A DNA stretch of 17,449 nt from NCBI GenBank assembly GCA_028287415.1, contig JAQBPS010000418.1, forward strand, positions 1-17,449. The letters are read 5' to 3'. This document shows positions 149-15,967 of this stretch, piece by piece. Position 1 is the first letter of the stretch; every line of letters starts with the position of its first letter. The stretch is from Bacillota bacterium. Lineage in GTDB: Bacteria; Bacillota; Sulfobacillia; Symbiobacteriales; Symbiobacteriaceae. Below the pieces are notes generated by a model, which saw only the letters and a list, made by a program, of their open reading frames with translations, was not told where the DNA came from and made no database searches. Made by a program: the position numbers and the translations under genes.

Positions 149-2017
149 TTACACCCGGAATCGTGCCACCTGCGACTGGAGCTCGGCCGCCACCCGGCTC
201 AGGCTGCCCGCACTGTTGGCGATTGAGTCCGCTCCGGCACTCAGCTCCTCCATGGCGGCGGAGACCTCCTCGGACGATGAGGCGTTCTCCTCGGAGACCG
301 CTGCAATTGCGTGGATCGCTTCCGTCACCTGGTCGGCGCCGGCCGCCATCTCCTCGGTGGCCGCGGTGTTCTCCTCGGTGACGCTCGCCACCGCGTTCAC
401 CGCCTGCATGACCTGTCCGCTGACCGTCGTCAGCCGTGTTGAGACTGCGATTACGGTGTCCACCCGGTCGCCCGTCTCAGCGACCATGCGCTGAATCTCT
501 TCAAGCGAGCTGCGGGTCTCGACCGACAGCTTCGAGCCTTCTTCCACCTCAGCGGTCACTGCTTCCATGTTCTGCACCGCCTGCGTGGTGCTGAGCCGGA
601 CGCTGGTGATCAGTGAGGCGATCTCCTGCGAGGAGCGGGCCGCACGCTCAGCGAGCTTGCGCACCTCATCAGCGACAACCGCAAAGCCCCGGCCGTGGTC
701 ACCGGCCCGAGCGGCCTCGATGGCGGCATTCAGGGCCAGCAGGTTCGTCTGGTCCGCAATCTCCGTGATGGTGGTCGTGATCTCGCTGATCTGCGATGAC
801 GTGCGGCCCAGCTCCCGGATCTGCCCCGCGGTGGCGACCACCGCGTTGTGGATGCGGCTCATGCCCTCCGACGAGCGCTGGATCACATCGCCACCGCTCT
901 GGGCGGCGACCGTCGCCTGCCGGGAGGTCTCAATGGCGGTGCCGAGGGCGGCATCAGCTTCAGCGATCGCATCGGCCATCTCGGCGACGAGTTCGGCGGA
1001 GTCCTGGGCGTTCCGGGCCTGATCCTGGGCGCCGGCCGCGATCTGCGTGATCGCTGTGCGCAGCTCTTCCACAACCCGGCTGGCCTCGTGCGCCGACCGG
1101 GACTGATCGGAGGCGCCCTGGGCCACGCCACCGACCGCCTGCGTCACCTCGACAGACGACTCGGATACCTGCCCGGTGATCGTGGCGAGGTCATCGGCGG
1201 CGGTGGCGACTTGCCCGCTGCCGCTGGTGACCTGGCGCACCAGCGTGCGGAGGTTCTCGACCATCTGGTTGAAGGTGGCGGCCACTTCGCCCAGCTCATC
1301 CCGCGAGGTGATGCGCACTGCGGCGACCGTGAGATCGCCATCGGCCACCCGGCTGGCGACCTCCGCCAGGCGGCGGATCGGGGCGGAGAGCGCCCGGGCG
1401 AGCAGCATGGCAGCGATGATGCCGATCAGGAGTGCGGCGAGCACCGTCCCCAGCATCAGCTGGAGGCTCTGATTGGCCTGCGTGTTCCCCTGGGTGACGG
1501 TGTCCCCAGTTCGCTGGTTGATGCCGCCGGCGATGTCGGATGCGGTGCCTGCCATCGTGACGATGCGGGGCATGGCCGTCTGCTGGAATGTCATGAGGGC
1601 CTGATCGCGCTGGCCGCTGCGGGCGTTGGCGAAGATCTCCTGGATGGCGTTAAAGTCGTCGGATTCCAGCGCTTTGATCGACTTGAACTGGTCCCGGGTT
1701 GTGCTGCTGGTGGCCGTAGTGATCAGGCCGTCAAGCTGCTTCGCAAGCTGTGAACTCGTCGCCTTGTAGTCGGTCGCATCCTGCTCGTTCTGGGTGAGCA
1801 TGAACGACTGCGCTTGCATAGCCTCTCGGTTTACCAGCACCTGGACCTGCTGCGCACCCTGAGCCAGGAGCGTTTTCCGGGCGATATCCGCAACCGATGC
1901 CTGCAGTCGCTGGATTGCCAGGTAGCCGACGAGTCCCACCACCACCATGATGACGAGCAGGAGCAGCGACGAAGCCAGCAGCTTGGTGCGAATCGAGATG
2001 CGAGCCTTCTTCTTCAA
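149..2017 (-). CDS. Methyl-accepting chemotaxis protein
   Basis: Transmembrane chemoreceptor that signals to the CheA/CheW array. In the 622-residue form, a first membrane helix (about residues 12-35) is followed by an extracytoplasmic region of about 150 residues, predicted helical as in four-helix-bundle sensors. A second membrane helix lies near 188-210, a HAMP domain near 208-260, then a long coiled-coil signalling domain. The highly conserved hairpin tip ([19 protein letters not shown], then [15 protein letters not shown]) lies near 421-460. No CheR/CheB-tethering pentapeptide is seen at the C terminus. The frame could extend 10 codons upstream to a GTG at 2047. The TTG at 2017 is preferred because AGGAGG (2027-2032) sits 9 bases before it and would otherwise lie inside the gene. 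The leader carries a predicted c-di-GMP riboswitch and terminator, so expression is probably set by c-di-GMP. The ligand is unknown. Confidence 0.95.
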
Positions 2018-2054
2018 CCCGGGTAGCCTCCTAAAGCTAAATTTCACCGATGTA

Positions 2055-2095: not shown

Positions 2096-2192
2096 GTCCC
2101 GGCCTTCGGCGGTCCCGCTGCCGTGGCCCTTTGCAGGGCTGTAGGCCGGTGACTTTGCGACGCCGGCTTTCGCCGGTTGTGCCTTTATCGAG
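2096..2192 (-). promoter_or_regulatory. Predicted cyclic-di-GMP-I (GEMM) riboswitch
   Basis: Reading the minus strand, the order of elements matches the GEMM class. First comes AAAGGC, then a CCGGC-GAAA-GCCGG hairpin with a GNRA tetraloop, then the conserved CGCAAAG block. A second helix follows, starting CCTACAGCCC, closed by TGCAAA and returning as GGGCCACGG. It ends AGCGGGACCGCC. This parallels the Vibrio Vc2 aptamer: GACGCAAAGCC, CCUAAACC...GGUAGG, AGCGGGGUUACC. The tetraloop-plus-receptor arrangement and the downstream chemotaxis gene fit the class. Some positions differ from consensus (GTC for GCC after CGCAAA; CACAA where AAA is usual). c-di-GMP is therefore the likely ligand, but cGAMP-type variants are not excluded by eye. 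Confidence 0.85.
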
Positions 2193-2223
2193 CGGTGCTA
2201 TAAAAATAGCGCAAACCACAAAG

Positions 2224-3301: not shown

Positions 3302-4519
3302 CTAGGGACATCGGAGGAAGTCCTGCACCAGAGACAGATAGTAGGCGACCCCCACCGGAATGCACCCCTCGTCCAGATTCAACCGTGGCGTGTGAAGCCC
3401 TGCCCGCTCCCGGTCCTCCGGCGCCGCGGCCCCCAGCCTGCCGAAGCTGCCAGGCCGCTCCTGCAGGTAGAAGGCGAAGTCCTCTGCGCCCATGGAGGGC
3501 GCCATGTCGGTGATATTCCCTTCCCCCAGGACCGTCGCCGCTGCCGCCCGGGCAAGGGCAGTCTCCCCCGGCGAGTTGACCAGCACGGGGTAGCCGGTCC
3601 GTACCTCGAGGGTCGCGGTGGCTCCGTGAGCGACACAGACGCCATCGGCCACTTCCTGAATGCGCCGCAGCACCTGCTCCCGGACCGGCTGGCTCATGGT
3701 GCGGACGGTGCCCTGGAGAACCGCCTCGCCAGGGATGATATTGTGCTTGTTGCCGCTATGGATCGAGCCCACCGTCAGTACCACCGGATCGAACGGATTG
3801 ATGTTACGGCTGACCACACTCTGAAGGGCGTTCACCACCTGGCACGCAACATAGACCGCATCGACGGTGGCATACGGGTGCGCCCCGTGGCCACCCTTGC
3901 CGTGGATGGTCAAGTCGAACTCGTCAGGAGCCGCCATGCGCGGACCGTCGCCAAACCCCATCTGCCCCACCGTGAGTGATGGGAGTACGTGCAGTCCGAA
4001 GATCGCATCCACATGCGGATTCTCGAGCACCCCGTCCTTGATCATCAGGCTGGCGCCGCCGGGGGCGCTCTCCTCGCCCGGCTGGAAGATCAGCACGACC
4101 TGCCCCGTCAATTCCGGCTGAAGTTCCCTCAGCGCCCTGGCGGTGCCCAGCAGAACGGCGGTGTGGACATCATGGCCACAGGCGTGCATGAGCCCCTCCT
4201 TGCGGGAGGCGAACGGGAGGCCGGTCTGCTCCTGGATGGGAAGGGCATCGATGTCGGCCCGGAGGGCGATGGTGCGACCCGGCCCCTTGCCGCCCTGCAG
4301 AACCACCTTGATGCCAAACCCACCGATGCCGGTCTGCGGCTGATACCCGATCTTCCGGAGTTCCGCCGCGATGAATTCGCTGGTCTCCCGCTCCTGGTAA
4401 CTCAGTTCCGGATATGCATGCAGGTGCCGCCGGCAAGCGGTTGCCCACTCGGCCACAGAGGCTGCCAGTTCCTGAAACCGTGCCGTTTCGATGGTAAGAC
4501 CTCCCGATTGTAATGTCAT
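3302..4519 (-). CDS. M20 family metallo-amidohydrolase (aminoacylase/hippurate hydrolase type)
   Basis: Cytoplasmic di-metal hydrolase of the HipO/AmhX/N-acyl amino acid amidohydrolase group, which releases amino acids from N-acyl or similar amides. Visible motifs (codon numbers from the TTG at 4534): RRHLHAYPELSYQE near 35-48, LRADIDALP near 91-99, the metal-site MHACGHDVHTA with Cys119 and His121, PGEE with Glu154-Glu155, GKGGHGAHP in the lid domain, and MGAEDF near the C terminus. The start is unclear. The frame is open to a TTG at 4534. The ATG at 4519 is used here (405 residues) because it overlaps the stop of a possible leader peptide as ATGA. The best internal Shine-Dalgarno, GGGAGGT, instead points to an ATC at about 4492, which would give the usual family N terminus. 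It is divergent from the GntR gene and probably shares its regulation and catabolic purpose. Confidence 0.92.
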   Translation of the reverse strand: MTLQSGGLTIETARFQELAASVAEWATACRRHLHAYPELSYQERETSEFIAAELRKIGYQPQTGIGGFGIKVVLQGGKGPGRTIALRADIDALPIQEQTGLPFASRKEGLMHACGHDVHTAVLLGTARALRELQPELTGQVVLIFQPGEESAPGGASLMIKDGVLENPHVDAIFGLHVLPSLTVGQMGFGDGPRMAAPDEFDLTIHGKGGHGAHPYATVDAVYVACQVVNALQSVVSRNINPFDPVVLTVGSIHSGNKHNIIPGEAVLQGTVRTMSQPVREQVLRRIQEVADGVCVAHGATATLEVRTGYPVLVNSPGETALARAAAATVLGEGNITDMAPSMGAEDFAFYLQERPGSFGRLGAAAPEDRERAGLHTPRLNLDEGCIPVGVAYYLSLVQDFLRCP

Positions 4520-4569
4520 AACATAACTAGCCAATTTGTAATGATGAAAAACCTATTCCACTTAATCAG
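4516..4569 (-). CDS. Possible 17-codon leader peptide before the amidohydrolase
   Basis: On the minus strand a near-perfect Shine-Dalgarno AAGGAGG (4579-4585) is followed 8 bases later by CTG. From there a short open frame encodes a hydrophobic peptide (LIKWNRFFIITNWLVML). Its TGA overlaps the amidohydrolase ATG at 4519 as ATGA, a classic coupling geometry. No ATG or GTG start is present; TTG and ATT lie in the same frame. The strong ribosome binding site with no other gene to serve is the main evidence. It could be chance or a decayed start region. Confidence 0.3.
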   Translation of the reverse strand: MIKWNRFFIITNWLVML

Positions 4570-4684
4570 AAACAACACCTCCTTGAATTCGTCCAATCCA
4601 ACAATCATCTATCACGTCTCTTTTTTTAGATTTATTTGTTTGTATCAGCAGGAATTGCAGAAACAGGCGGGAAAGATTATTACA

Positions 4685-4720
4685 TTCGATCTCCATTTGT
4701 TATATCAAATTGTGATCGAA
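4685..4720. promoter_or_regulatory. 36-bp interrupted palindrome, candidate operator
   Basis: TTCGATC-n3-ATTTG-n6-CAAAT-n3-GATCGAA is a two-part symmetric inverted repeat in the AT-rich divergent region, about 60 bases before the GntR start. Its size and symmetry fit a dimeric regulator. The neighbouring GntR/UTRA protein, acting on itself and on the divergent amidohydrolase, is the obvious candidate. No flanking promoter pair stands out clearly enough to call. Confidence 0.55.
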
Positions 4721-4781
4721 GCTGGGAATCGGGCGAGCCTGACCGTGGCCATGAGATATTTTCCCTTCGGAGGCATCACAC

Positions 4782-5504
4782 GTGACTGCAAAAAATCTGC
4801 CGCTAAACAAGCGCATCTACGCGGATCTGCTCACCCTGATTCAGCGTGGCGAACTGGGTCCCGGCGCCGCACTGCCCACCGAGAAGGAGCTTCAGGAGCA
4901 GTACGGCGTCAGCCGGGCGCCCGTCCGTCAGGCGCTGGCTCGGCTGGAGAACGAGGGACACATCCGCCGCACGCCGGGCCGGGGCACCGAGGTCTTGCAA
5001 CTCCAGGTAGCACCGACGGTGAAGCTGTCCGGCTTTGCCCACTTCTACAACCGCCTGGTGGACAGCATCACCAGCCGGATTCTCAAGGTTGAGACGGTCC
5101 CCGCCGATGAGGAGATCGCCGGGCACCTGGGGCTGGAGCCGGGGCTGCCAGTCATGAAGGTCCACAGGGTCCGCATGGTGTCCGGTGAGCCCACCGCTTA
5201 CATGACGAACTACTTTGCCGTGCCGGACTTCTCCCTGGAGTTCCCCGACACCGGCAGCGAGCACTTTACGCTGCAGCAGCTGATCCGGCAGAACTTCCAT
5301 CGGGATGAGGCTGAGGTGCAGGAAGACCTGGTGGCGGCGATTGTGCCGCCGGAGGTCGGCCAGGTGCTTCAGTTGCCCCCCGGGACCCCCGTTCTCTTCG
5401 TGACCCGCCGAGGCTGGGACAGCGAGCGCAGGCCGGTGGAGGTGAGCCGCTACTGGGCCCGCAGCGATGTCACGACGTACCGCACGTTTCTTTCGACCAA
5501 GTAG
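4782..5504 (+). CDS. GntR family transcriptional regulator with UTRA domain (HutC subfamily)
   Basis: DNA-binding regulator controlled by a small ligand. The N-terminal winged helix-turn-helix spans about residues 8-70, with the signature PLNKRIYADLLTLIQ, LPTEKELQEQYGVSRAPVRQAL and the wing IRRTPGRGTEV. The UTRA ligand-binding domain fills about 85-238, including the typical GLPVMKVHRVRMVSGEP segment and the C-terminal VEVSRYWARSDVTTYR. The length of 240 is normal for HutC-type members. GTG start, with GGAGG 8 bases upstream. It heads the uptake and hydrolysis gene set that follows on the same strand and is probably its repressor, with a pathway substrate or product as inducer. The 36-bp palindrome upstream is a likely binding site. 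Confidence 0.93.
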   Translation: MTAKNLPLNKRIYADLLTLIQRGELGPGAALPTEKELQEQYGVSRAPVRQALARLENEGHIRRTPGRGTEVLQLQVAPTVKLSGFAHFYNRLVDSITSRILKVETVPADEEIAGHLGLEPGLPVMKVHRVRMVSGEPTAYMTNYFAVPDFSLEFPDTGSEHFTLQQLIRQNFHRDEAEVQEDLVAAIVPPEVGQVLQLPPGTPVLFVTRRGWDSERRPVEVSRYWARSDVTTYRTFLSTK

Positions 5505-5542
5505 TGGAGGTGGGACAGGTGGACAGAACGGCGAGGCCTTGA

Positions 5543-5571
5543 TTGACATTTTCGGGATGCGTGAAGTCATT
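5543..5571 (+). promoter_or_regulatory. Possible promoter before the catabolic genes
   Basis: A consensus -35 TTGACA occurs in the 83-base gap between the regulator and the RraA-like gene, but only a poor -10 (GTCATT) lies 17 bases on. Just upstream, aggtgggacaggtggacag contains a short direct repeat. An internal promoter is plausible but weakly supported. Confidence 0.3.
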
Positions 5572-5587
5572 TACGGAGGGAACTAAC

Positions 5588-6292
5588 ATGAGCAACGACC
5601 GCGTTATGCCCGAGTACCGGATCCGCCTTCGGATCGACCGTCCCGACCCAGCCACCTACGCCGGGTACACCGAGTACCCCACAGCCTGCATTTCCGATGC
5701 CTTCCGCAAGCGCCAGACCCTGCCGCCGAGCATCAAGCCGGTCTGGGGCCCGCCCGGGCGGATCGTGGGGCCTGCGGTCACGGTGAAGGCGACCCCCGGC
5801 GATGAGATCCTGGCCCTGAAGGCGATCGAGATCGCCCAGCCCGGCGACGTGATCATCGTGGCGGGCGCCGACCATGAGCTGAACTGCTTCTGGGGCGGCA
5901 TCATGTCGACGATGGCGAAGGCCCGGGGCGTCGCGGCCCTGGTGGCCCAGGGCATGATCCGGGATCTGGAGCAGTGCCGGGAGGCGGGCTTTCCGATCTG
6001 GGCGACCGGTGTGACCCCCGTGGCGCCGAACATGGACGTGCCTCCGGGGGAATTGAACCTGCCGATCACCATCGGCGAGGTGACCATCCACCCTGGCGAT
6101 CTGGTGGTTGCGGATGAAGACGGCGTCACCATCGTGCCGAAGGCGCAGATTGCCGCTGTGAGCGATGCCGTGAAGAGCCGTATCGCCAAGGAGGATGCCT
6201 GGCTGGCGCAGATCCACGCAACCAGGCAGATGATCCTCAAGGATTCGGTGGAGAGCCTGCTGGCCAAGCGTACAGTCGAGTATCTCGACTAG
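5588..6292 (+). CDS. RraA-like / HMG aldolase family protein
   Basis: Member of the RraA/dimethylmenaquinone methyltransferase fold family, whose characterised catabolic members are metal-dependent class II aldolases and decarboxylases of oxo acids such as 4-hydroxy-4-methyl-2-oxoglutarate. Motifs in the 234-residue protein: GPAVTVKATPGD near 61-72, PGDVIIVAG near 85-93, WGGIMSTMAKARG near 102-114, GMIRD with Arg125 and Asp126 (the substrate-binding Arg and metal-site Asp of the aldolases), and GDLVVADEDGVTIVP toward the C terminus. The usual Glu after WG is Gly, so activity may differ. The frame extends 15 codons further upstream, but the ATG used has GGAGGG 7 bases before it. The true substrate is unknown. 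Its place with amidohydrolases suggests that it handles a released oxo acid or carries out a related lyase step. It lies 18 bases before the creatininase gene. Confidence 0.85.
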   Translation: MSNDRVMPEYRIRLRIDRPDPATYAGYTEYPTACISDAFRKRQTLPPSIKPVWGPPGRIVGPAVTVKATPGDEILALKAIEIAQPGDVIIVAGADHELNCFWGGIMSTMAKARGVAALVAQGMIRDLEQCREAGFPIWATGVTPVAPNMDVPPGELNLPITIGEVTIHPGDLVVADEDGVTIVPKAQIAAVSDAVKSRIAKEDAWLAQIHATRQMILKDSVESLLAKRTVEYLD

Positions 6293-6310
6293 AGGAGGAG
6301 CCAACCCGCC

Positions 6311-7093
6311 ATGAGCAAGGCTGAACTGTGCAGCATGACCTGGGCCGAGTCCGCCGAGGCCTTCAAGCAGAACCCCGTCATCCTCATCCCCATGGGCAGC
6401 ATTGAGGAGCACGGCCCGGCGACCCCGGTGGGTGATTACCGCTACACTGCGGAGATCTCCCGCCAGGTGGCAGAGGCGACGGGCGCTGTCTCCTGCCCGA
6501 CCATTCCCTGGGGCTACTCGGAGTACTTCAAGCCCTTTCCCGGCACCATCAGCATCCGGCCCGAGACGCTGACCATGATCCTGGAGGATCATCTGGACTG
6601 CCTCCTCCGGTTCGGCCTGGACCATATCATGTTCGTCTGCGGCCACAAGGGGGACTTGCACATTTTGGAGCAGCTGGGCCGCAAGATCCGGCTGGCACAC
6701 AAGCTGCGGGTGGCGACGATGGAGCCGATTGCCTGGTTCACTGAGGAGTGGAAGCGCGAGGTCTACGGCGCGGACAAGCCCTGGACCGGCCACGGCACCG
6801 ACCCGATGCAGTCCTTCGCCATGCACCTTTATCCCGCAGAAGTGCGTCCCGACCTGTTGCAGCCGGGCAACAAGCCCGTCTGGAACGGGCAGACCTTCCA
6901 GGGCACGGCGGCCACCTTCACCGAGGGGAACATCTGGCACATGTACCTGGACTACAACGAGCTGACCCCTAACGGCGTGATCGGGGATGTGAACCTGCCC
7001 AGCGCTGAGGTGGGCCGCCGCACCCTGGACCGCCTGGTAGCGATCGGCTCCAAGGTCGTGCGCCGCTTCGCTGAGATCGACACCCGACTGTAA
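6311..7093 (+). CDS. Creatininase family amidohydrolase, variant metal site
   Basis: Predicted cytoplasmic metal-dependent hydrolase of cyclic or linear amides, in the creatininase/creatinine amidohydrolase superfamily. The signature PMGSIEEHGP supplies Glu32 and His34, Asp42 lies in VGDYR, and CGHKGD supplies His112. Two deviations stand out. The loop between His34 and the Asp is one residue shorter than in the paralogue downstream. The usual GHGGE/GHAGE segment reads GHGTDPMQS, so Asp164 stands where the last metal ligand is normally Glu. The length of 260 is normal. Strong GAGGAGG upstream of the ATG; 18 bases after the RraA-like gene and 25 before the permease, so very likely the same operon. 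The substrate is unknown; creatinine itself is not implied. Confidence 0.85.
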   Translation: MSKAELCSMTWAESAEAFKQNPVILIPMGSIEEHGPATPVGDYRYTAEISRQVAEATGAVSCPTIPWGYSEYFKPFPGTISIRPETLTMILEDHLDCLLRFGLDHIMFVCGHKGDLHILEQLGRKIRLAHKLRVATMEPIAWFTEEWKREVYGADKPWTGHGTDPMQSFAMHLYPAEVRPDLLQPGNKPVWNGQTFQGTAATFTEGNIWHMYLDYNELTPNGVIGDVNLPSAEVGRRTLDRLVAIGSKVVRRFAEIDTRL

Positions 7094-7118
7094 GCGCCGC
7101 TACCAGGGGGGATTCTGG

Positions 7119-8072
7119 GTGCGCCGATTTCTGCTTCGTCGCCTGGGGATGAGCGTGCTGCTAATGTGGTTGGTGGCGAGCTTGATCTTCCTCATGATCC
7201 ACGCCCTCCCGGGCGACCCCGCCATGGCGGTCCTGGGCGGTGGGGATGCCTCGCCTACTCCGGAGCAGCTCATTACCGTGCGAGCCAAACTGGGGCTGGA
7301 CGTGCCACTGTACGAGCAGTATCTCAACTACTTCGGCCGGCTGGCACGGGGGAATCTGGGGGAGAGCCTCCTGAACGGCAGGCCCGTCGCACTGGATCTG
7401 GGGCTGCGGCTGCCGCGAACCCTCCAGTTGATCATCCCGACGGTCATGATCTCGCTGCTGCTGGGGGTGCCACTCGGCATCATCGCAGCGAAGTTCCGAA
7501 AAACCTGGGTCGACCCGGTCGTCTCGGGCATCGCGCTGCTGGGCTTCTCGCTCCCGGTTTTTGTGGTGGGAACCCTGCTGGTGCTAATCTTCTCGCTGAA
7601 GCTGAAATGGTTCCCGCCTTCGGGCTGGGTTGACTTCAGCGAGCAGCCCCTGGAGTTCTTCCGAAGGCTCACCCTGCCCGTGGTGGCGCTGACGTTCGGC
7701 CCCCTGGCCACGACCATGCGCATGACCCGCACCAGCATGCTGGAGCAGCTGAACATGGATTACACCCGGACCGCCCGGGCGAAAGGTCTGTCGGACCGGA
7801 TCGTCATCTACCGCCACGCGTTGCGAAACGCCTTGCTGCCGGTTGTCACGGTGGTCGGACTACAGTTTGGCAACATGTTCGCCGGCTCGGTTCTGGCGGA
7901 GTATCTATTCAACTGGCCTGGCCTCAACAACTTGATGTTCCGGGCGATCGGCGTGCGTGACTACCCGGTGGTGCAGGGTGTGGTGCTGCTCAGTTCCGTG
8001 ATGTTTGTCTTGATCAACCTCCTCACCGACGTGTCCTACGCCTTGTTAAACCCACGGATCCGGTACGACTAG
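7119..8072 (+). CDS. ABC transporter permease, DppB/OppB type
   Basis: Integral membrane subunit of a peptide/opine/nickel-class ABC importer. The N-terminal helix (about residues 10-30) precedes HALPGDPA. A periplasmic loop contains LGLDVPLYEQYLNYFGRLARGNLG, and further membrane helices follow near 104-122, 135-160, 184-200 and beyond. The cytoplasmic coupling loop TARAKGLSDRIVIYRHALRN (about 218-237) is the EAA motif that docks the ATPase. The length of 317 is normal for DppB. GTG start behind a GGGGGG site. It is followed 12 bases later by the partner permease. Partners are the DppC-like subunit and the lipoprotein; the ATPase must come from elsewhere. Confidence 0.95.
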   Translation: MRRFLLRRLGMSVLLMWLVASLIFLMIHALPGDPAMAVLGGGDASPTPEQLITVRAKLGLDVPLYEQYLNYFGRLARGNLGESLLNGRPVALDLGLRLPRTLQLIIPTVMISLLLGVPLGIIAAKFRKTWVDPVVSGIALLGFSLPVFVVGTLLVLIFSLKLKWFPPSGWVDFSEQPLEFFRRLTLPVVALTFGPLATTMRMTRTSMLEQLNMDYTRTARAKGLSDRIVIYRHALRNALLPVVTVVGLQFGNMFAGSVLAEYLFNWPGLNNLMFRAIGVRDYPVVQGVVLLSSVMFVLINLLTDVSYALLNPRIRYD

Positions 8073-8084
8073 GGGGGGAGCTTC

Positions 8085-8912
8085 ATGACATGGTCGCGGC
8101 TGGTCAAGAACCCGCGGATCTGGCTCAGCGGGGGCTACCTGCTCGTGCTGGTGCTGTTGGCGATCGGGGCGCCTCTGCTTGCCCCGAAGGACCCGACGGT
8201 GATGGCAGGTGCCAGCCGGCTGGCCCTGCCCAGCGCCAAATACCTGCTGGGGGCGGACGAGTTCGGCCGGGATATCCTCAGCCGGCTGATCTACGGCGCA
8301 AGGATCACCCTGGAGGTCTCGACGTTTGGTGTGCTGATCGCGTGTGTGATCGGGGTGCTGCTGGGCATGGCTGCGGCTTACAACGGCAAGTGGACGGAAG
8401 CGGTCATCATGCGGGCGATGGATGCGGTGCTCTGCTTTCCGCCGATCCTGCTGGCCCTGATGGTGGTCACGTTCATGAAACCCACGGTGACCAACGTTGT
8501 CCTGACGGTTGGGTTCCTTTATGTGCCGAGGTTCGCTCGGATCGCGCACAGTTCGGCGCTGGCCATCTCCCAGAGCGATTACGTCGAGGCCGCCCGGGCC
8601 CTGGGCGCCGGCAACTGGCGCATCCTGGTGAAGGCGATTCTGCCGAACATCATGGCGCCGGTCTTCGTGCAGATTTCGCTCAGCCTGGGCAACGCCATCC
8701 TGCTCGAGAGTGGTCTCAGCTACCTGGGCATGGGCCCGCCCCCGCAGATCCCGTCCTGGGGCCGCATGATCGAGACGTCGTCCCGGTTCATGCACCTGAA
8801 CCCGCATGCGGTCATCTGGCCTTCGGTGGCCATCGCCGTCACCGTCCTGGCGTTCAACTTGTTGGGGGATGCGGTCAGAGACACGCTGGACCCGCGGCTC
8901 CGGAACAGCTAG
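8085..8912 (+). CDS. ABC transporter permease, DppC/OppC type
   Basis: Second membrane subunit of the same importer. The N-terminal helix lies near residues 13-33, followed by the DppC hallmark LGADEFGRDILSRLIYGAR (55-73) and several membrane helices. The coupling loop YVEAARALGAGNWRILVKAILPN (166-188) carries the EAA motif. The C terminus GDAVRDTLDPRL is typical of the family. The length of 275 is normal. ATG start with GGGGGGAG 5 bases upstream. It would form a heterodimer with the preceding permease. No nucleotide-binding protein follows; the next gene is the binding protein. Confidence 0.95.
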   Translation: MTWSRLVKNPRIWLSGGYLLVLVLLAIGAPLLAPKDPTVMAGASRLALPSAKYLLGADEFGRDILSRLIYGARITLEVSTFGVLIACVIGVLLGMAAAYNGKWTEAVIMRAMDAVLCFPPILLALMVVTFMKPTVTNVVLTVGFLYVPRFARIAHSSALAISQSDYVEAARALGAGNWRILVKAILPNIMAPVFVQISLSLGNAILLESGLSYLGMGPPPQIPSWGRMIETSSRFMHLNPHAVIWPSVAIAVTVLAFNLLGDAVRDTLDPRLRNS

Positions 8913-8930
8913 CACACGGGGGGATGGATC

Positions 8931-10541
8931 ATGCAGATGAGATGGCAGCGGTTCATGGTAGCGGGGCTGGCCGTCGCTGTGGTGGCAGTGGGGGGCTGCG
9001 GCGGGGGCGCCAAGTCTGATACTGGCGGCGAGCAGAAGGGTACCGGCACCCAGACGGCTTCCGGTCCCAAATCCGGCGGTACCCTGAAGGTGGGCATCTC
9101 CCGGGATCCACTGGCGTTCGACGGCCACATTGCCTACGGTATCACCAACAGTTCCGTCCTTGGCAACATCTACGACGGACTGGTGGAGTATGACATGCCG
9201 GGCGACGGCAAGATCGTAGGCGCCCTGGCAGAGTCCTGGACGATGCCCGATGACAAGAGCTACGTCTTCAAGATCCGACAGGGGGTCACGTTCCACAACG
9301 GCGACCCGTTCGATGCGCACGTCGCGGAGTGGAACCTGAAGCGGATCATGGACCCGCAGACAGCAGCCACCCGGCGGGGCGAACTGACCGCCATGATCGA
9401 CAAGATCGACGTGCCGGACGACTACACGCTGAAGGTTACGCTCAAGCAGCCCTCGCCCATTTTCCTCAACGTGCTCGCCGCTCGCGAGGTCTACATGATG
9501 GACCAGAAGTGGGTAGCGGCGGGTAATGATCCGAAGAAGTCAGCGATGGGCACCGGCCCGTTCAAGCTGAAGAGCTACGAGCCCCAGCGTAACGTGATCC
9601 TGGTCAAGAACGAGAACTACTGGAAGAAGGGACTGCCGTACCTCGATCAGCTGGACATGGAGGTGCTCCAGGACGACGCCGCCCGTGTCAACGCCTTCAA
9701 GGGCAATGAGGTAAACTTCATCGAGTATGTGCCCTGGCAGGAGTTTCAGGGCTTCGAGGCGGACAAGAGCCTCAAGCTGACGAAGGGCTTTGACTCCTTC
9801 AATGTCGTGCGCCTCAACCCGAACCGGGCGCCCTTCGACAACCCCAAGGTCCGCCAGGCGATCAACTACGTGGTTGACCGTGAGGAGATCATCAACCTGG
9901 CCTGGGGCGGGCAGGGCCTTCCGATTACGGGCGGCATGCTCCAGCAGTCCTCACCGTACTACAACGCTGACCTTCAGGGCGTGTGGAAGAAAGACTGGGA
10001 CAAGGCCCGGGCGTTGCTGAAGGAAGCGGGCATCAACAACCCCGCTGACGTGAAGCTTACGCTGGAAACATCCACGCTGTCGGTGCATAAAGACACCGCT
10101 CAGGTGGTGCTCCAGGAGTTGCAGCAGTTCGGTTTCAAGGTGGAGTATAAGACCTTTGAGTTCCAGACCACCGTGGACAAGCGCTCCAGCGGCGACTATC
10201 AAATGCTCGTGGACGGCCTGGGTATGTCCTGGCCCGACCCCGATTTCTACTTTCAGTACTTCCACAGCACCGGTTCCGGCCATGCCAAGGGTGTGAAGAT
10301 GAAGGTTGACGCCCTCGACAAGCTGATCGAGCAGGGGCGCACTACCGTCGATCCGGCCATGCGGAAGCCCATCTATCACGATCTGGAAAAGGGGATCGTC
10401 GACAACGCTCCGTGGATCTTCCTTCTGTGGCGGCCGCAAGCTGAGGTGACGCACGACTTTGTCATGGGGTACAAGCCCCTGCCGGGCGGTATTGCCGGCT
10501 ACTCCATCGGGTATCTCGAATACGTCTGGCTGAACAAGTAG
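8931..10541 (+). CDS. Extracellular solute-binding lipoprotein, family 5 (peptide/nickel type)
   Basis: Substrate receptor of the importer, anchored outside the membrane by a lipid. The signal peptide ends in a lipobox VGGC with Cys23, followed by a Gly/Ser/Lys/Thr-rich linker to about residue 45. The family 5 signature is clear: GGTLKVGISRDP, LAESWTMPDDKSYVFKIRQG, VTFHNGDPFDAHVAEWNLKR, then FDNPKVRQAINYVVDREEI in the middle. The length of 536 is typical for DppA/OppA relatives. ATG start with GGGGGGA upstream, 18 bases after the permease gene and 7 before the second creatininase gene. The ligand cannot be read from sequence; the surrounding hydrolases suggest a short peptide or amide-containing small molecule. 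Confidence 0.95.
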   Translation: MQMRWQRFMVAGLAVAVVAVGGCGGGAKSDTGGEQKGTGTQTASGPKSGGTLKVGISRDPLAFDGHIAYGITNSSVLGNIYDGLVEYDMPGDGKIVGALAESWTMPDDKSYVFKIRQGVTFHNGDPFDAHVAEWNLKRIMDPQTAATRRGELTAMIDKIDVPDDYTLKVTLKQPSPIFLNVLAAREVYMMDQKWVAAGNDPKKSAMGTGPFKLKSYEPQRNVILVKNENYWKKGLPYLDQLDMEVLQDDAARVNAFKGNEVNFIEYVPWQEFQGFEADKSLKLTKGFDSFNVVRLNPNRAPFDNPKVRQAINYVVDREEIINLAWGGQGLPITGGMLQQSSPYYNADLQGVWKKDWDKARALLKEAGINNPADVKLTLETSTLSVHKDTAQVVLQELQQFGFKVEYKTFEFQTTVDKRSSGDYQMLVDGLGMSWPDPDFYFQYFHSTGSGHAKGVKMKVDALDKLIEQGRTTVDPAMRKPIYHDLEKGIVDNAPWIFLLWRPQAEVTHDFVMGYKPLPGGIAGYSIGYLEYVWLNK

Positions 10542-10548
10542 GTGCGAT

Positions 10549-11343
10549 ATGCGTAAGTATGAACTTGCCCTGATGAGCTATCGTGAGATCGAGGCGGTCG
10601 ACCGGGAACAGGCGGTGGTTCTGCTCCCCGTCGGATGCGTGGAGCAGCACGGCCCCTGCGGCCTCACCGGCGCTGACACCCTGCTGGCCGAGCGCTGGTG
10701 CCGTGACGTCGCATCCCAGGGGGAGAACACCTACGTGGCCGCTCCCATCTGGTATGGGTACACGCCGTATACGGCCTTTGCCGGTACCATCACCCTTCGG
10801 CTGGAGACGCTGAAAGCCGTGGTGCAGGATGTGGTGGACGGCCTGATCAGCCACGGCTTCAAGCATATCGTGCTCGTCAACAACCACGGGCCGAACGAGG
10901 CGGCGCTGGAGCAGGTGGCCGCGCAGGTGCGGCGTGAGCACAGCATCACGCTAGGGCTCCTGTACCCGTGGCGCCTGGCGATGCACCTCTGCCCCGACCT
11001 ATACGAGGACTACAAGGCGGTGGCCGGCCATGGCGGTGAGCCGACCATTTCAGTGATGATGGCGCTCGCCCCCGGCATGGTCGACCTTACCCACACGGCG
11101 CCCCGCGGGTACGTTCGGGAGCAGGGGCCATTCTACGCCTTGAACTACAAGGCGGCCCGGTTCGAAGGCTTCGAGGTGGGCGTCTATTGGAGCGCCGAGG
11201 AGGTGCTCCCCGGCGGGACCAGCGGTGATTGGCGCCCGGCCACGCAGGAGCGGGGCGAGGAGATTCTGCGCCGCATGGCCGCATACGGGCTCAAGTTCAT
11301 CCCGGCCTTCCGCACCTGGAGTCAGGGGAGGGCGGCCAAATGA
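10549..11343 (+). CDS. Creatininase family amidohydrolase, canonical metal site
   Basis: Second creatininase-family enzyme of the cluster and a paralogue of the one before the permeases. PVGCVEQHGP supplies Glu32 and His34, GAD supplies Asp43, NNHGPNE supplies His113 and GHGGEPTIS supplies Glu164, so all expected metal ligands are present. The length of 264 is normal. The ATG lies 7 bases after the binding-protein stop with only a modest ribosome site (GTAGGTG), so translation is probably coupled. Its TGA overlaps the ATG of the dipeptidase by four bases, evidence for co-translation with it. Likely a cytoplasmic amide or lactam hydrolase acting on the imported compound or a derivative. Which of the two paralogues acts first is unknown. 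Confidence 0.9.
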   Translation: MRKYELALMSYREIEAVDREQAVVLLPVGCVEQHGPCGLTGADTLLAERWCRDVASQGENTYVAAPIWYGYTPYTAFAGTITLRLETLKAVVQDVVDGLISHGFKHIVLVNNHGPNEAALEQVAAQVRREHSITLGLLYPWRLAMHLCPDLYEDYKAVAGHGGEPTISVMMALAPGMVDLTHTAPRGYVREQGPFYALNYKAARFEGFEVGVYWSAEEVLPGGTSGDWRPATQERGEEILRRMAAYGLKFIPAFRTWSQGRAAK

Positions 11344-12707
11344 GTCTCAGGGAGGCCCTCCGGGTGGCGGCAGAGCGGGAAGATGCGAACGTGGCGGACC
11401 TGCAGGCATTCCTCCGCATGCCTTCGGTGGCTGCTCAGAACTTGGGGATGCAGGCGTGCGCGGAGTTCCTGGCCGAGCACTTCCGGGCGATTGGGTGCGA
11501 TCATGTGCGGTTGGTGCCCACCGCCGGGTTCCCGGTGGTCTGCGCCGAGGTGCGCGGGGAGTCGGACCGCAGTGTGCTGGTCTACGGCCATTACGACGTA
11601 CAGCCTCCCGAACCGCTCGAGGCATGGCCGCACCCACCGTGGAGCGCCCACCTGGAGAATGGACGCATCTACGCCCGGGGCGCCGTGGATGACAAGGGCA
11701 ACTTCTACTGCGCCGTTAAGGCTGTGGAGGCCTACCTGCAGGCAGGGCGCCGCCCTCCGGTCACGGTGAAGTTCTGGATCGAGGGCGAGGAGGAGGTGGG
11801 CAGCCCCAACCTCAGCCAGTTCGCCCGGGATCACTACGACTGGCTCAAGTGTGACGGAATGATTCTTCAGGACGGCGGCGAGGCCTCCGACGGGCGGACC
11901 GAGTTCAACCTCGGCATGAAAGGGCTGCTCTACCTGGAGTTGTCCGTCCGGAAGAACCCCCGGGATCTTCACTCCGGTAAGGCACCGGTGGTGGAAAATG
12001 CCGCCTGGCGCCTGATCTGGGCGCTCGCCTCCATGAAGGGGCCCGACGACCGGGTGCTCGTGGATGGTTTCTATGACAACATCAGCCCGGTCACCGAGGC
12101 GGAAATGGCGTGCATTCGGCAGAACGCCATTCCTGACCAGGTGCTGGTTGATGAGTTCGGTGGGGCGCCGCTGAAGCAGGGGCTGACCGGTCCGGAGCTG
12201 TTCAAGACGCTCTACTTTGAGCCCACCATGACGGTGTGCGGGTTCGATTCCGGGTACAACGGACCGGGGCAGAAGACCGTGTTGCCCGCCACTGCCAAGG
12301 CGAAGATGGATATTCGCCTGGTGCCTGGGCAGGACCCGCAGGACCTCCTGGCCAAGGTGAAGCGGCACCTGGTGGCGCACGGCTTCGCCGACATTGCGGT
12401 GAAGACGCTGGGCGGGGCGGGGTTGCCCGCGGGGCGGACGGCCCTCGAAGCGCCTGTGGCTCAGGCATTGTTGCAGGCCGTGACCGAGGAGTGGCACGGC
12501 CGCAAGCCGATCATCAAGCCGAGCGTCGAGGGCTCCGGCCCGGGTTCGATCTTCTCGGACATTCTGCAGATTCCGTGGGCATTGACCCGCTTCGGGCCGA
12601 AGGAGGCGCTCATGCACGCCCCCGGCGAGTACACCGAAGTGGCTGGTTACCTGCGGGGCATCCGGACGATCATCAAGTTCTTGCAGTACTTCCAGGACTG
12701 GGAGTGA
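11340..12707 (+). CDS. M20 family dipeptidase (CNDP/PepV-like)
   Basis: Di-zinc exopeptidase of the carnosinase-like M20 group, cleaving dipeptides or related amides in the cytoplasm. In the 455-residue protein VYGHYDVQPP gives His84 and Asp86, YARGAVDDKG gives the bridging Asp117, and EGEEEVGS gives the catalytic and metal Glu pair near 151-152. DLHSGKAPVVENAAW lies in the lid domain and GSGPGSIFSDI near the end. The frame is open further upstream, but the ATG used overlaps the previous stop as ATGA and has GGGGAGGG about 8 bases before it. It is co-translated with the second creatininase-family gene, which suggests consecutive steps: ring or amide opening, then hydrolysis of the resulting peptide-like bond. 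Confidence 0.93.
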   Translation: MSLREALRVAAEREDANVADLQAFLRMPSVAAQNLGMQACAEFLAEHFRAIGCDHVRLVPTAGFPVVCAEVRGESDRSVLVYGHYDVQPPEPLEAWPHPPWSAHLENGRIYARGAVDDKGNFYCAVKAVEAYLQAGRRPPVTVKFWIEGEEEVGSPNLSQFARDHYDWLKCDGMILQDGGEASDGRTEFNLGMKGLLYLELSVRKNPRDLHSGKAPVVENAAWRLIWALASMKGPDDRVLVDGFYDNISPVTEAEMACIRQNAIPDQVLVDEFGGAPLKQGLTGPELFKTLYFEPTMTVCGFDSGYNGPGQKTVLPATAKAKMDIRLVPGQDPQDLLAKVKRHLVAHGFADIAVKTLGGAGLPAGRTALEAPVAQALLQAVTEEWHGRKPIIKPSVEGSGPGSIFSDILQIPWALTRFGPKEALMHAPGEYTEVAGYLRGIRTIIKFLQYFQDWE

Positions 12708-12723
12708 GAGGGGGGCACAAGCC

Positions 12724-13572
12724 GTGTCGGAGAAACTGCTGTGGGATCGCCTTCAGGTCGAACTGACTGAAAGGGTCGCTGGCTTTGCCGGGGTTGCCGG
12801 ACTGTGCATCAAGGATCTGACCACGGGCTGCCAGGTGGCTGTCAACGCCGACGAGGAGTTCCCAACCGCCTCGGCCATCAAGGCGCCCATTCTCGCACGG
12901 ATGTTTCGCTTGGCGGAGGCCGGCAAGCTCGACCTGAGCCGCAGAGTGCAGCTGACCGAGGATTTGAAGGTACCGGGCAGCGGCGTCATTACCTACTTCG
13001 ATGACGTGGCTGAGCTGACGGTGCGGGACATCGCCGTGTTGATGATCATCGTATCGGACAACACCGCTACCAACCTCTGCATCGACTGGGCCACCTACGA
13101 GGGCACGAATGCCCTGCTGCGGGAACTCGGCATTACCAGGACCACCCTGCGTCGCAAGATGCAGGATCATGTGGCGGTGGAGCGGGGCGAGGAGAACCTG
13201 GCGACGCCGGCGGAGTTGGTGCAGTTCTATGAGGCGCTCTTCCGGCCGGAGAAGCTGAGCCGCTACGTGTGCGAGGAGACAATCAAGGTGCTGAAGAAGC
13301 GAAAGCGAAGCCAGTTTGCCCAGGGCCTGCCTCCAGACGTGGTGCTGGCGGGCAAGCCGGGCGGAATGGACAATGTGCGGACTGACGCCGGCATCGTCTA
13401 CCTGGATCGGCGACCCTACGCCATGTGCGTCATGACGAAGTATGGCATGTGCCTGCCAAGCGAACAGGAGCAGTTCGTCGCCGGGGTAGCGCGGACGGTG
13501 CACCGGCACATGAGTACGTTGGCTGTCACCAGTGTTCATGGGCAGGGGCTGCCACCTCAGTTCCGGAAGTAA
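12724..13572 (+). CDS. Class A beta-lactamase-fold serine hydrolase, cytoplasmic
   Basis: Serine hydrolase of the penicillin-binding/class A beta-lactamase fold. Active-site motifs are present in order: SAIK (Ser50, Lys53), SDNTATN (Ser111-Asp112-Asn113) and KPGG (Lys210) in place of the KTG/KSG triad. A segment ENLATPAE near 156-163 sits where the omega loop ends, but a standard ExxLN is not obvious. No signal peptide is present. The protein starts directly in the fold, so it should be cytoplasmic, unlike true beta-lactamases. GTG start with GAGAGGGGGG upstream, 16 bases after the dipeptidase, so it is the last gene of the operon. A role in amide, ester or peptide hydrolysis in the same pathway is more likely than antibiotic resistance. 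The length of 282 is normal. Confidence 0.87.
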   Translation: MSEKLLWDRLQVELTERVAGFAGVAGLCIKDLTTGCQVAVNADEEFPTASAIKAPILARMFRLAEAGKLDLSRRVQLTEDLKVPGSGVITYFDDVAELTVRDIAVLMIIVSDNTATNLCIDWATYEGTNALLRELGITRTTLRRKMQDHVAVERGEENLATPAELVQFYEALFRPEKLSRYVCEETIKVLKKRKRSQFAQGLPPDVVLAGKPGGMDNVRTDAGIVYLDRRPYAMCVMTKYGMCLPSEQEQFVAGVARTVHRHMSTLAVTSVHGQGLPPQFRK

Positions 13573-13798: not shown

Positions 13799-13896
13799 GG
13801 GAGTAGCTCTGGTCCTGGTGGCCGGCACGGTCTTCAAAACCGATGTGCCGTAGTGATCCTGCGGCGGGTGGGTTCGATTCCCACATACTCCCGCCA
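13799..13896 (+). tRNA. selC: tRNA-Sec (anticodon TCA)
   Basis: Selenocysteine tRNA that decodes in-frame UGA codons. It is 98 bases long with CCA encoded. The acceptor GGGAGTAG pairs with ATACTCCC, the eighth pair being a G-A mismatch. The D arm has the Sec-typical 6-bp stem (CTGGTC/GGCCGG). The anticodon loop CTTCAAA carries TCA at 13834-13836, closed by CGGT/ACCG with an A-A mismatch at the base. A long variable arm (GCCGTAG/CTGCGGC) follows, then the T arm GTGGG-TTCGATT-CCCAC. The extended D stem, long extra arm and TCA anticodon exclude tRNA-Ser or tRNA-Leu. It is clustered with selA and selD. Confidence 0.95.
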
Positions 13897-14509: not shown

Positions 14510-14548
14510 GTTACCGCATATCACCCGGTGATTTCCCACACGGAGGCC

Positions 14549-15967
14549 ATGACCTTGAAACCCTGGCAGCAAAAATTGCTCCGTGAGATTCCGCCCGTCA
14601 ATACGGTCCTGGACGCCCCCGCGGCCGTCCAGCTCCTGCAGCAGCATGACCGGGAGCTCGTCGTCCAGGCCGTCAACGCTGCCCTGGCGGACCTTCGGAG
14701 CCAGGTCACCGCAGCGGCTGATGAATCAGACCTCAGCCGGCTGGACCTCACGCCCGACGCCCTGGCCCGCTCCGCCGCCGCACAGCTGGACCTGCGCCTC
14801 CAGCCGAGATTGCGGCGCGTCATCAACGCGACCGGCGTCGTCCTGCATACGAACATGGGCCGATCACCGCTGGCCGATGAAGCCGTGGCGCAGATCGCCC
14901 GTGTCGCCGAACGCTATAATAACCTGGAACTGGACATCACTACTGGTGAGCGAGGCTCCCGGTATGCCCACGTTGAGGAGCTCCTCTGCCGCCTGACCGG
15001 CGCCGAGGCCGCCATGGTCGTCAACAACAACGCCGCCGCCGTTTTGCTCATGCTCTCCGCCCTCTGCAGCAGCAGAGAGGTGCTCGTCAGCCGGGGCGAA
15101 CTTGTGGAGATCGGCGGCTCCTTCCGGGTGCCCGACGTGATGGAACAGGGCGGCGCCCGCCTCGTCGAGGTCGGCACGACCAACAAGACCCACCCTGCTG
15201 ACTATGTGCGCGCCATCCGCCCGGAAACGGGCGCCCTGCTTAAAGTCCACACCTCCAACTTCAAGCTGATCGGCTTCACGGAGGATGTGCCCGTCGCCGA
15301 ACTCGCGACCATCGCCCACGAGCATGGCCTGCCCTGCCTGGTGGACTGGGGCTCCGGGGTCATGGTCGACCTGGCTCAGTTCGGCATCCCCCATGAGGCG
15401 ACCATGCCGGAGTTGATCCGGGACGGCGCCGACCTCGTCACCTTCTCCGGCGACAAGCTGCTCGGCGCCCCGCAGGGCGGGTTCATCGTCGGCAAGCGGG
15501 AGTTGGTCGAACGCTGCCGCAAGCACCCCCTCACCCGGGCGCTCCGGGTCGATAAGCTGACCCTGGCGGGCATTGAGGCGACGCTCAAGCTCTACCTCGA
15601 GCCGGCCAAAGCGATTCAGAGCATCCCCACATTGCGTATGCTCAGCCTCAGCCGGGCACAACTGACCCCGGTCGCGGACGACCTCGCCCACCGCCTCAAC
15701 GAAGCCCTGATTGGCACCGGACTCACCGCACACACCATCGATGGTTTCTCGCAAGCGGGCGGCGGCTCGCTGCCCGGCGTCGACCTGCCCACCAGGCTCG
15801 TGGCGATTGCCATGGCGGCCCCCCATGCCGTGGAGCGGCGGCTGCGCGAGCAGGACCCCCCGGTGATGGTCCGGGTGTCAGGCGGCCAGATTTTGTTCGA
15901 CCCCCGAACCCTCTGGCCTGAGGAACTTGATTTGACAGTATCTGCCCTGCGCCGGGCAGTCGTCTAA
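14549..15967 (+). CDS. selA: L-seryl-tRNA(Sec) selenium transferase
   Basis: PLP enzyme that converts Ser-tRNA(Sec) to Sec-tRNA(Sec) using selenophosphate; a homodecamer in characterised bacteria. The N-terminal tRNA-binding domain contains PPVNTVLD and the conserved RRVINATGVVLHTNMGRSPL. The PLP domain follows, with NNLELDITTGERGSR, AAMVVNNNAAAVLL, SRGELVEIGGSFRVPD, and LVDWGSG. The cofactor lysine is in TFSGDKLLGAPQGG (residue 303 from this ATG). About 472 residues, normal for SelA. The start is uncertain: a GTG at 14528 lacks a ribosome site, the ATG used is only 2 bases after GGAGG, and a TTG at 14555 has ideal 8-base spacing. It is followed after 19 bases by selD. Confidence 0.97.
   Translation: MTLKPWQQKLLREIPPVNTVLDAPAAVQLLQQHDRELVVQAVNAALADLRSQVTAAADESDLSRLDLTPDALARSAAAQLDLRLQPRLRRVINATGVVLHTNMGRSPLADEAVAQIARVAERYNNLELDITTGERGSRYAHVEELLCRLTGAEAAMVVNNNAAAVLLMLSALCSSREVLVSRGELVEIGGSFRVPDVMEQGGARLVEVGTTNKTHPADYVRAIRPETGALLKVHTSNFKLIGFTEDVPVAELATIAHEHGLPCLVDWGSGVMVDLAQFGIPHEATMPELIRDGADLVTFSGDKLLGAPQGGFIVGKRELVERCRKHPLTRALRVDKLTLAGIEATLKLYLEPAKAIQSIPTLRMLSLSRAQLTPVADDLAHRLNEALIGTGLTAHTIDGFSQAGGGSLPGVDLPTRLVAIAMAAPHAVERRLREQDPPVMVRVSGGQILFDPRTLWPEELDLTVSALRRAVV

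Follow-up and report, generated by a model that had tools for sequence, protein, structure and literature searches.

What does a bacterium import and take apart with an operon that sets two creatininase-family proteins and an RraA-like protein beside a dipeptide-type transporter and several other amide hydrolases? The question is raised by a stretch of 17,449 nucleotides (hereafter the window; bases 1-17449 of contig C212) from a Bacillota bacterium, the genome assembly of which comprises 4.1 Mb in 822 contigs and is 77.8% complete. That the operon is dedicated to import and amide hydrolysis is, in our judgement, very likely. More tentatively, and at somewhat short of an even chance, its genes could be induced by, and serve to degrade, an amino-acid conjugate of lactam or opine type, that is, an N-substituted, ring-closed and probably glutamate-type amide. 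The parts come from known families; among named systems, the aga opine operon comes closest. The argument is built on gene content, family and fold, conserved residues, a recurrent gene neighbourhood and the clade of the substrate-binding protein (SBP), which groups with the receptor AgaA, all of them read from sequence.

A first-pass annotation of this DNA had described the genes for a GntR regulator, an RraA-like protein, a first creatininase-family protein (CreA), DppB, DppC, a binding lipoprotein, a second creatininase-family protein (CreB), an M20 dipeptidase and a beta-lactamase-fold hydrolase on one strand, together with a divergent M20 amidohydrolase. This description is borne out: the named set lies on the plus strand, the divergent M20 gene (3302-4534) on the minus strand, and Pfam places all ten products in the named families, each well above the cut-off. 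The ATGA overlap between the CreB stop and the M20 dipeptidase start is also present (11340-11343). The gaps after the regulator had been given as at most a few tens of bases, which holds among the eight genes that follow it (18, 25, 12, 18 and 7 nt up to CreB, then the overlap, then 16 nt before the beta-lactamase-fold gene) and fails for the 83 nt between the regulator and the RraA-like gene. The regulator (4782-5504, +) carries a GntR domain (PF00392, 79 bits) and a UTRA ligand domain (PF07702, 91.5 bits). A simple scan for promoters and terminators returned nothing exceeding the shuffled expectation (3 against a mean of 2.1, and 1 against a mean of 5.6), and no GntR operator was found, the inverted repeats in 4500-4800 being distant pairs and 5495-5600 containing none.

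CreA (6311-7093, +; PF02633, 158.5 bits) and CreB (10549-11343, +; 186 bits, the cut-off being 31.3) share 31% identity and fall in separate supported branches of a 74-row tree made by a short search. A recent tandem duplication was rejected on both counts, and the two would represent anciently separate branches. The CreA branch (32 rows; Shimodaira-Hasegawa-like approximate likelihood ratio test, SH-aLRT, 95) is marked by a metal loop one residue shorter than usual, of the form ExHGPxxPxGD, which we call deletion-type. The loop reads EEHGPATPVGD in CreA, and the deletion is present in all 31 rows of the CreA alignment (A1). In CreB the loop, EQHGPCGLTGAD, lacks the deletion, and the standard spacing is seen in 28/28 rows of the CreB-family alignment (A2). 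Both proteins retain E, H, D and H of the creatininase metal residues, which we take to be E34, H36, D45, H120 and E122 (the last also appears in PDB titles); the E122 position is not conserved and aligns with Gly in the profile of CreA and with Pro in that of CreB.

AlphaFold models of the two proteins (mean predicted local distance difference test, pLDDT, 92.3 for CreA and 91.5 for CreB) matched creatininase-family entries exclusively in Foldseek at E <= 0.001 (26 of 26 for each), and these models speak to the fold only. The fold is like that of creatininase (template modelling score, TM, about 0.7-0.8), as are the four metal residues, whereas the E122 position and the shorter CreA loop are not. 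Three characterized members of the family were considered as identities and rejected, as both proteins fell below each cut-off: the creatininase equivalog TIGR04448 (65.6 bits for CreA and 88.5 for CreB; cut-off 235), MftE (TIGR03964; 70.6 and 77.6; cut-off 172) and IolN (NF041098; 60.3 and 77.3; cut-off 245), the latter two being relatives within the same Pfam family. No mycofactocin (mft-type) or inositol genes were found among the ten window proteins scanned by family models. Since all three matched NCBIfam cut-offs are missed, "creatininase" is best taken here as a fold label.

If the name does not disclose the function, the company that the gene keeps may. A profile of the CreA alignment was used to scan for related loci, of which the best 80 of 574, in named genomes, were compared; locus numbers (L) refer to such stretches. 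Among these, the 11 loci of the closest CreA relatives (L035-L045) differed sharply from the other 69 (L046-L114): RraA was found in 7/11 against 0/69, DppB in 8/11 against 2/69, DppC in 7/11 against 3/69, an SBP in 9/11 against 7/69, and an M20 gene of the amidohydrolase type in 3/11 against 1/69. This split was chosen after viewing the contexts of L035-L054, and it agrees both with the loop deletion and with a drop in match quality, the E-value passing from 6e-43 to 1e-29. The hosts of the 11 are Bacillota, Alphaproteobacteria, Acidobacteria, Armatimonadetes, a metagenome-assembled genome (MAG) of the Terrabacteria group and one further bacterium. Thirty-one deletion-type loci were then entered, the window included; 30 of them were scored within 8 kb, with RraA present in 21 and parts of a Dpp- or TRAP-type transporter in 26. 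The unscored one, L200 (loop EDQGTHAPMGD, deletion-type), encodes a Dpp-type transporter and lacks an annotated RraA gene. L163, with a fragmentary deletion-type reading from a genome of the window's class and no RraA or transporter matches, was left out of both the tree and this set, and L140 had been called loop-deleted by pattern match in the tree analysis although its alignment shows the standard length. The loci are not independent, as L039, L135 and L136 are near-identical, and so are L041 and L042 and several loci of the Agrobacterium group, a point for which the Fisher p-values for these and the later counts make no correction.

The layouts vary around these genes. L039, L135 and L136 read GntR-DppB-DppC-M55-DppD-DppF-CreA-RraA-SBP; L037 reads M55-DppD-DppF-SBP-DppB-DppC-RraA-CreA-formamidase-SDR; L035 is M20-SBP-CreA-DppB-DppC; and L137 has an XRE/cupin regulator, then M20 dipeptidase-RraA-creatininase family-DppB-DppC-SBP-M55-DppD-DppF, an order that L138 shares from the M20 dipeptidase onward. 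On annotated plasmids of Agrobacterium, Shinella and Qingshengfaniella the order is SBP-permeases-ATPase-serine hydrolase-creatininase family-RraA-N-formylglutamate amidohydrolase, and a Terrarubrum plasmid locus adds gamma-glutamyltransferase. The companions in kin loci are other amide cleavers: M55 D-aminopeptidase (L037, L135 and L137 by Pfam; L039, L136 and L138 by profile), formamidase, N-formylglutamate amidohydrolase, gamma-glutamyltransferase and hydantoinase/oxoprolinase. The plasmid loci are a non-random sample; for CreA, 15 were examined among 25 listed of 285 records, one being an MftE record and one lacking annotation, and for CreB, 2 among 25 listed of 311, neither with RraA or Dpp genes. 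From these layouts and the counts above, the recurrent core is an importer, a CreA-type protein and RraA, with the amide hydrolases exchangeable. Conservation of the whole set, which the first-pass annotation had proposed to check, therefore stands in part. The core of Dpp-type transporter, CreA type and RraA recurs, while both creatininase-family genes, the M20 dipeptidase and the beta-lactamase-fold gene were found together in none of the loci examined.

Some related loci deserve mention in their own right. The deletion-type proteins of L037 (10001-10774) and L038 (4785-5561) have Asp at the second metal His (H112 of CreA), and L072 (4733-7915), from an Oscillospiraceae MAG, contains a tandem of four creatininase-family genes. 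In L036 (929-10777) a CreA homologue (53%) ends a string of a GH4-like gene, a sugar-type ABC transporter (by reading), a LarA lactate-racemase homologue, an esterase, RraA and M20, a setting that looks sugar- or hydroxy-acid-like.

The partner that sets the deletion branch apart is the RraA-like protein (5588-6292, + strand, ATG at 5588; PF03737, 155 bits, cut-off 24.5). It aligns to the HMG/CHA aldolase 3noj (94 bits) and retains the Arg-Asp pair as R125-D126; in that enzyme, according to the part of the source available (PMC5065237), Arg-123 stabilizes the pyruvate enolate and Asp-124 binds the metal. Unlike that member of the RraA superfamily, the window gene lies outside any aromatic-degradation cluster, and its product misses the HMG/CHA equivalog NF006731 (138.7 bits; cut-off 179). 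The suggestion of the first-pass annotation that this enzyme handles a released oxo acid fits the retained pair.

A correlated change connects the two proteins. In some loci a metal His of the creatininase-family protein has become Gln, and the RraA partner there carries Thr-Asp or Ala-Asp (11 of 11); where the His is kept and an RraA gene lies within 1.5 kb, the pair is Arg-Asp in 13 of 14, the exception being L196. L140, not counted among the 11, breaks the rule, with Gln and Arg-Asp in genes 7.6 kb apart. As near-duplicates occur in both groups and the deletion-type Gln loci share one branch, the co-change, seen in an alphaproteobacterial branch, may be a single joint event. A joint change of both proteins nevertheless argues that they work together. 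The Gln-type deletion loci are L156-L160, L182-L185 and L197-L201, and RraA lacks the catalytic Arg in the 11 that have a partner. Among the matches listed for 154 genomes of the window's class, inspected by eye, creatininase-family and RraA genes stand side by side only on the window contig and on G020:C8, so the pairing seems to be a trait of the special branch and not of the families at large. All three RraA-like matches of the window's own genome adjoin Dpp-type sets, one in the window and two in tandem on contig C540. The tandem (L195) lies next to an SBP, DppB and DppC, and the contig stretch has no creatininase-family match.

What the operon takes up is best approached through its receptor, the substrate-binding lipoprotein (8931-10541, +; SBP_bac_5, PF00496, 308 bits; AgaA-like clade). 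Compared with all solved chains, it scored best with AgaA (6hlx, 239.8 bits), followed by an uncharacterised chain (211.3), YliB/GsiB (159.5), DppA (110.3) and OppA (99.2). As a control, the SBP of a second creatininase-Dpp operon in the same genome (L144) ranked AgaA seventh; that operon, on contig C184, consists of IclR, two Amidohydro_1 genes, the SBP, a creatininase-family gene, DppB and DppC. A quick tree that included DppA, OppA, GsiB and NikA of K-12 grouped the window's SBP with AgaA and apart from these four, which lie in another fork (support 95). Here the window, L035, L037, L038, L039 and L135 form one branch (support 100), which clusters in turn with AgaA and with those of L157, L185, L201, L200, L164 and L165 (14 rows, support 96). 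Twenty-four deletion-type loci were entered and 22 yielded an SBP piece; 16 of the 22 were nearest AgaA, against 5 of 17 controls, or 17/23 against 4/16 once L200, which a pattern had placed with the controls, was regrouped. A profile of five alphaproteobacterial kin-locus SBPs found AgaA at 423.5 bits, the next chain at 248.4, a score that leans on L157 and L185, which lie inside the AgaA branch (L158, L159 and L199 lie outside). Agropinic acid is the lactam of mannopinic acid. It is the ligand of AgaA, to judge from the title of Marty et al. 2019, as cited in PMC6683767. Of the substrates that the first-pass annotation had offered, a lactam or opine is therefore favoured by the tree and by the L144 control, and a hydantoin or diketopiperazine is not singled out.

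The permeases DppB (7119-8072, +; GTG start; PF00528, BPD_transp_1, 147 bits) and DppC (8085-8912, +; PF00528, 120 bits) complete what the window encodes of a Dpp/Opp importer, as no DppD or DppF ATPase gene is found within it. Elsewhere in the genome there are 13 DppD-like matches, the best of them (63%) in a pair on the 6.9-kb contig C133, where the profiles used labelled no permease or binding protein. We infer that the importer ATPases are supplied in trans. Another locus of this genome, L194 on C727, has an SBP that is nearest AgaA among six references, together with DppB, DppC and an M55 D-aminopeptidase gene cut by the contig end.

The comparison with the aga (agropinic acid) operon of Agrobacterium Ti and opine plasmids can be drawn gene by gene. 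AgaA relatives on these plasmids (85 and 90% identical over the compared part of 6hlx) sit in operons with hydantoinase/oxoprolinase and a flavin adenine dinucleotide (FAD) oxidoreductase, and a third such locus was found; an agropinic acid uptake operon is named on pAoF64/95, the plasmid of L204, in the part of the source available (PMC6341043). The window resembles this system in its SBP, DppB and DppC (34, 44 and 47% identical). It lacks the hydantoinase/oxoprolinase, FAD oxidoreductase and ATPase of aga-type loci and the SDR that precedes the transporter in two of the three, and has instead the creatininase-fold, RraA-like, M20 and beta-lactamase-fold proteins. Intermediate arrangements exist. 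Two rhodobacterial loci combine hydantoinase B, an AgaA-like SBP, Dpp genes, an SDR and a FAD oxidoreductase with a deletion-type creatininase-family gene, a TRAP transporter and RraA, the SDR and FAD oxidoreductase being 43-51% identical to their counterparts in a Ti-plasmid aga-type operon; for L185 and L201, where these two genes lie beside the deletion-type gene, the values are ~50-51% (FAD oxidoreductase) and ~43-44% (SDR). We found no description of the window's gene set in the open-licence literature searched, weak evidence of absence given that broad matches were listed in part and most subscription journals lie outside it. The same literature yielded no creatininase in a cluster with N-formylglutamate amidohydrolase or with the D-aminopeptidase DppA; as far as its text was available, "creatininase family" occurs there in work on mycofactocin biosynthesis and mycofactocin dehydrogenase.

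Three further hydrolases are available to act on linear amides. The divergent M20 protein is of the hippurate/indole-3-acetic acid (IAA)-amino-acid hydrolase type (PF01546, 160 bits; TIGR01891, 383 bits, cut-off 154), its nearest solved chains being 4ewt, YxeP and an IAA-amino acid hydrolase homologue. A homologue is co-directional with SBP-CreA-DppB-DppC in L035, and the gene probably belongs to the system. The M20 dipeptidase/carboxypeptidase-like protein (11340-12707, +; PF01546, 104 bits) has the Peptidase_M20 and M20_dimer parts, as in the divergent M20, is nearest the Sso-CP2 carboxypeptidase (4mmo, 254 bits) and has the metal-site motifs. The beta-lactamase-fold serine hydrolase (12724-13572, +; PF13354, Beta-lactamase2, 209 bits) shows the motifs SAIK (SxxK), SDN and KPG, with ExxLN not matched, and misses the class A beta-lactamase model NF033103 (109 bits; cut-off 200); as no signal peptide is visible by reading, it is apparently cytosolic. 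In Agrobacterium tumefaciens 1D1460 (L183, 6417-8825), a serine hydrolase and a creatininase-family gene are annotated as one coding sequence of ~800 amino acids. In sister strains they remain two genes, some of them overlapping; the single coding sequence is either a natural fusion or a sequencing slip.

Taken together, these parts suggest the following scheme, in which we infer the substrate class, the order of steps and the regulation as well as the sequential action of the enzymes that the first-pass annotation had proposed. The AgaA-like lipoprotein would bind the compound and DppB/DppC would import it, with ATPases from elsewhere in the genome. CreA and/or CreB, as creatininase-fold metal hydrolases, would open a ring or cut a non-peptide amide, and the linear amides that remain would be cut by the two M20 enzymes (the dipeptidase and the divergent amidohydrolase) together with the apparently cytosolic serine hydrolase. 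The RraA-like protein, as a class II aldolase/decarboxylase, would then cleave a 2-oxo acid, or a 4-hydroxy-2-oxo acid, yielding a pyruvate-type product, and the UTRA-GntR protein would sense the compound or a breakdown product. The glutamate component is suggested by genes that accompany the kin operons (those for N-formylglutamate amidohydrolase, gamma-glutamyltransferase and oxoprolinase) and not by the window. A bolder extension, which we consider unlikely, is that the deletion branch and RraA form a two-enzyme module for lactam opines and similar ring-closed glutamate conjugates well beyond the crown-gall bacteria, with a creatininase-fold lactamase replacing the hydantoinase-type enzymes of aga-type loci; the alphaproteobacterial co-change would then look like a joint switch of chemistry by the pair.

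Several observations weigh against import and breakdown of a lactam- or opine-like conjugate. An AgaA orthologue is just 34% identical to the window's SBP, SBP family 5 is promiscuous, and a shared clade does not imply a shared ligand. The link to AgaA holds for the SBP's own branch and for part of the wider group, as 6 of the 22 SBPs from deletion-type loci have another nearest reference and those of the Agrobacterium group make up a separate branch. A tblastn search (E <= 1e-20) for the aga HyuA and FAD oxidoreductase gave no match in the window; the same search found HyuA in L043 and L184 and the FAD oxidoreductase in L185 and L201. By Pfam, no transaminase or oxidoreductase able to make the oxo acid is present among the operon genes. 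Two deletion-type loci of the window's class, L142 (a 3.7-kb contig) and L143, have neither RraA nor transporter parts, some kin have a TRAP transporter instead of the Dpp type (L040 and L160, with an M20 amidohydrolase), and L036 has the sugar-type ABC transporter and LarA.

The main rival is specialized peptide scavenging, which we rate as somewhat unlikely. The dpp-ykf operon of Bacillus subtilis is a peptide operon in which a Dpp-type transporter is joined to dedicated peptidases. By analogy, short peptides with D-residues or blocked ends would be cut to amino acids by the M20 proteins, the serine hydrolase and the creatininase-fold enzymes, the last with a peptidase role like that of MftE. 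The Dpp-type permeases, the M20 dipeptidase and the M55 genes of kin loci agree with such a role, and MftE, whose model is named "peptidyl-dipeptidase", provides an example of a peptidase within the creatininase family. However, the SBP matches AgaA best and scores much lower with DppA and OppA, the RraA-like enzyme would have no obvious place, and the window contains neither M55 nor ykf-type enzymes and has creatininase-fold and RraA-like ones.

Other cyclic-amide chemistry, in which hydantoins, creatinine-like imidazolones or diketopiperazines are opened by the creatininase fold and then cleaved by M20 enzymes, is quite improbable. The fold itself would suit it, the M20 family includes carbamoylases, and hydantoinase/oxoprolinase genes lie next to deletion-type genes in L184, L185 and L201, with a further match in L043. 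Yet CreA and CreB remain far under the creatininase cut-off (66 and 89 of 235 bits) and do not conserve the E122 ligand, the divergent M20 falls short on the hydantoinase/carbamoylase model (36.6 of 204 bits), and this model is not among the 25 families listed for the M20 dipeptidase. We give little credence to a division into two functions, in which CreA-RraA and the transporter form one unit and the CreB, M20 and beta-lactamase-fold hydrolases an unrelated string co-transcribed with it, for although this trio was not seen beside CreA in the loci examined and CreA and CreB appear anciently separate, the genes are tightly spaced with an ATGA overlap, L137 and L138 pair a 46%-identical M20 dipeptidase with RraA, creatininase-family and Dpp genes, and CreB-branch genes in L164 and L165 adjoin AgaA-like SBPs.

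Creatininase-family proteins as such are common in the window's class (117 of 154 genomes), and CreA-type genes at E <= 1e-50 were found in 6 of the 154. Across the phylum, the CreA profile matched in 19 of 398 genomes at E <= 1e-40 and the CreB profile in 3 of 398 at E <= 1e-60, the window's genome included. None of the four other genomes of the same family or the three of the same order had a CreA-type gene (E <= 1e-50) or an RraA-like gene (E <= 1e-8). This patchy distribution suggests that the operon-type genes were gained horizontally.

Other features of the window lie outside the operon. Downstream, between 13799 and 17045, are tRNA-Sec (13799-13896), selA (14528-15967) and selD, the latter two named by reading; selD apparently encodes a selenoprotein in its own right, the reading frame containing a TGA within "KAGUGCK" (ATG at 15999, TGA at 16038). 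A role in selenium metabolism, which these neighbours brought to mind, was rejected, as the YgeY-type model gives the divergent M20 29.5 of 321 bits. On the other side, a c-di-GMP-I riboswitch (71.8 bits; 2105-2193, minus strand) immediately precedes a methyl-accepting-chemotaxis-like gene (149-2047, minus strand; called by reading).

Roles have been assigned to few of the many creatininase-family proteins, and three NCBIfam equivalogs were matched here. One branch is now tied to a loop deletion, an RraA partner and a transporter with a receptor related to that for a lactam opine; this narrows an open annotation problem to a short list of ligands. If the proposed function is true, opine-like lactams would feed bacteria well outside the crown gall, and two superfamilies known chiefly as "creatininase" and "RNase E regulator" would share a catabolic role.

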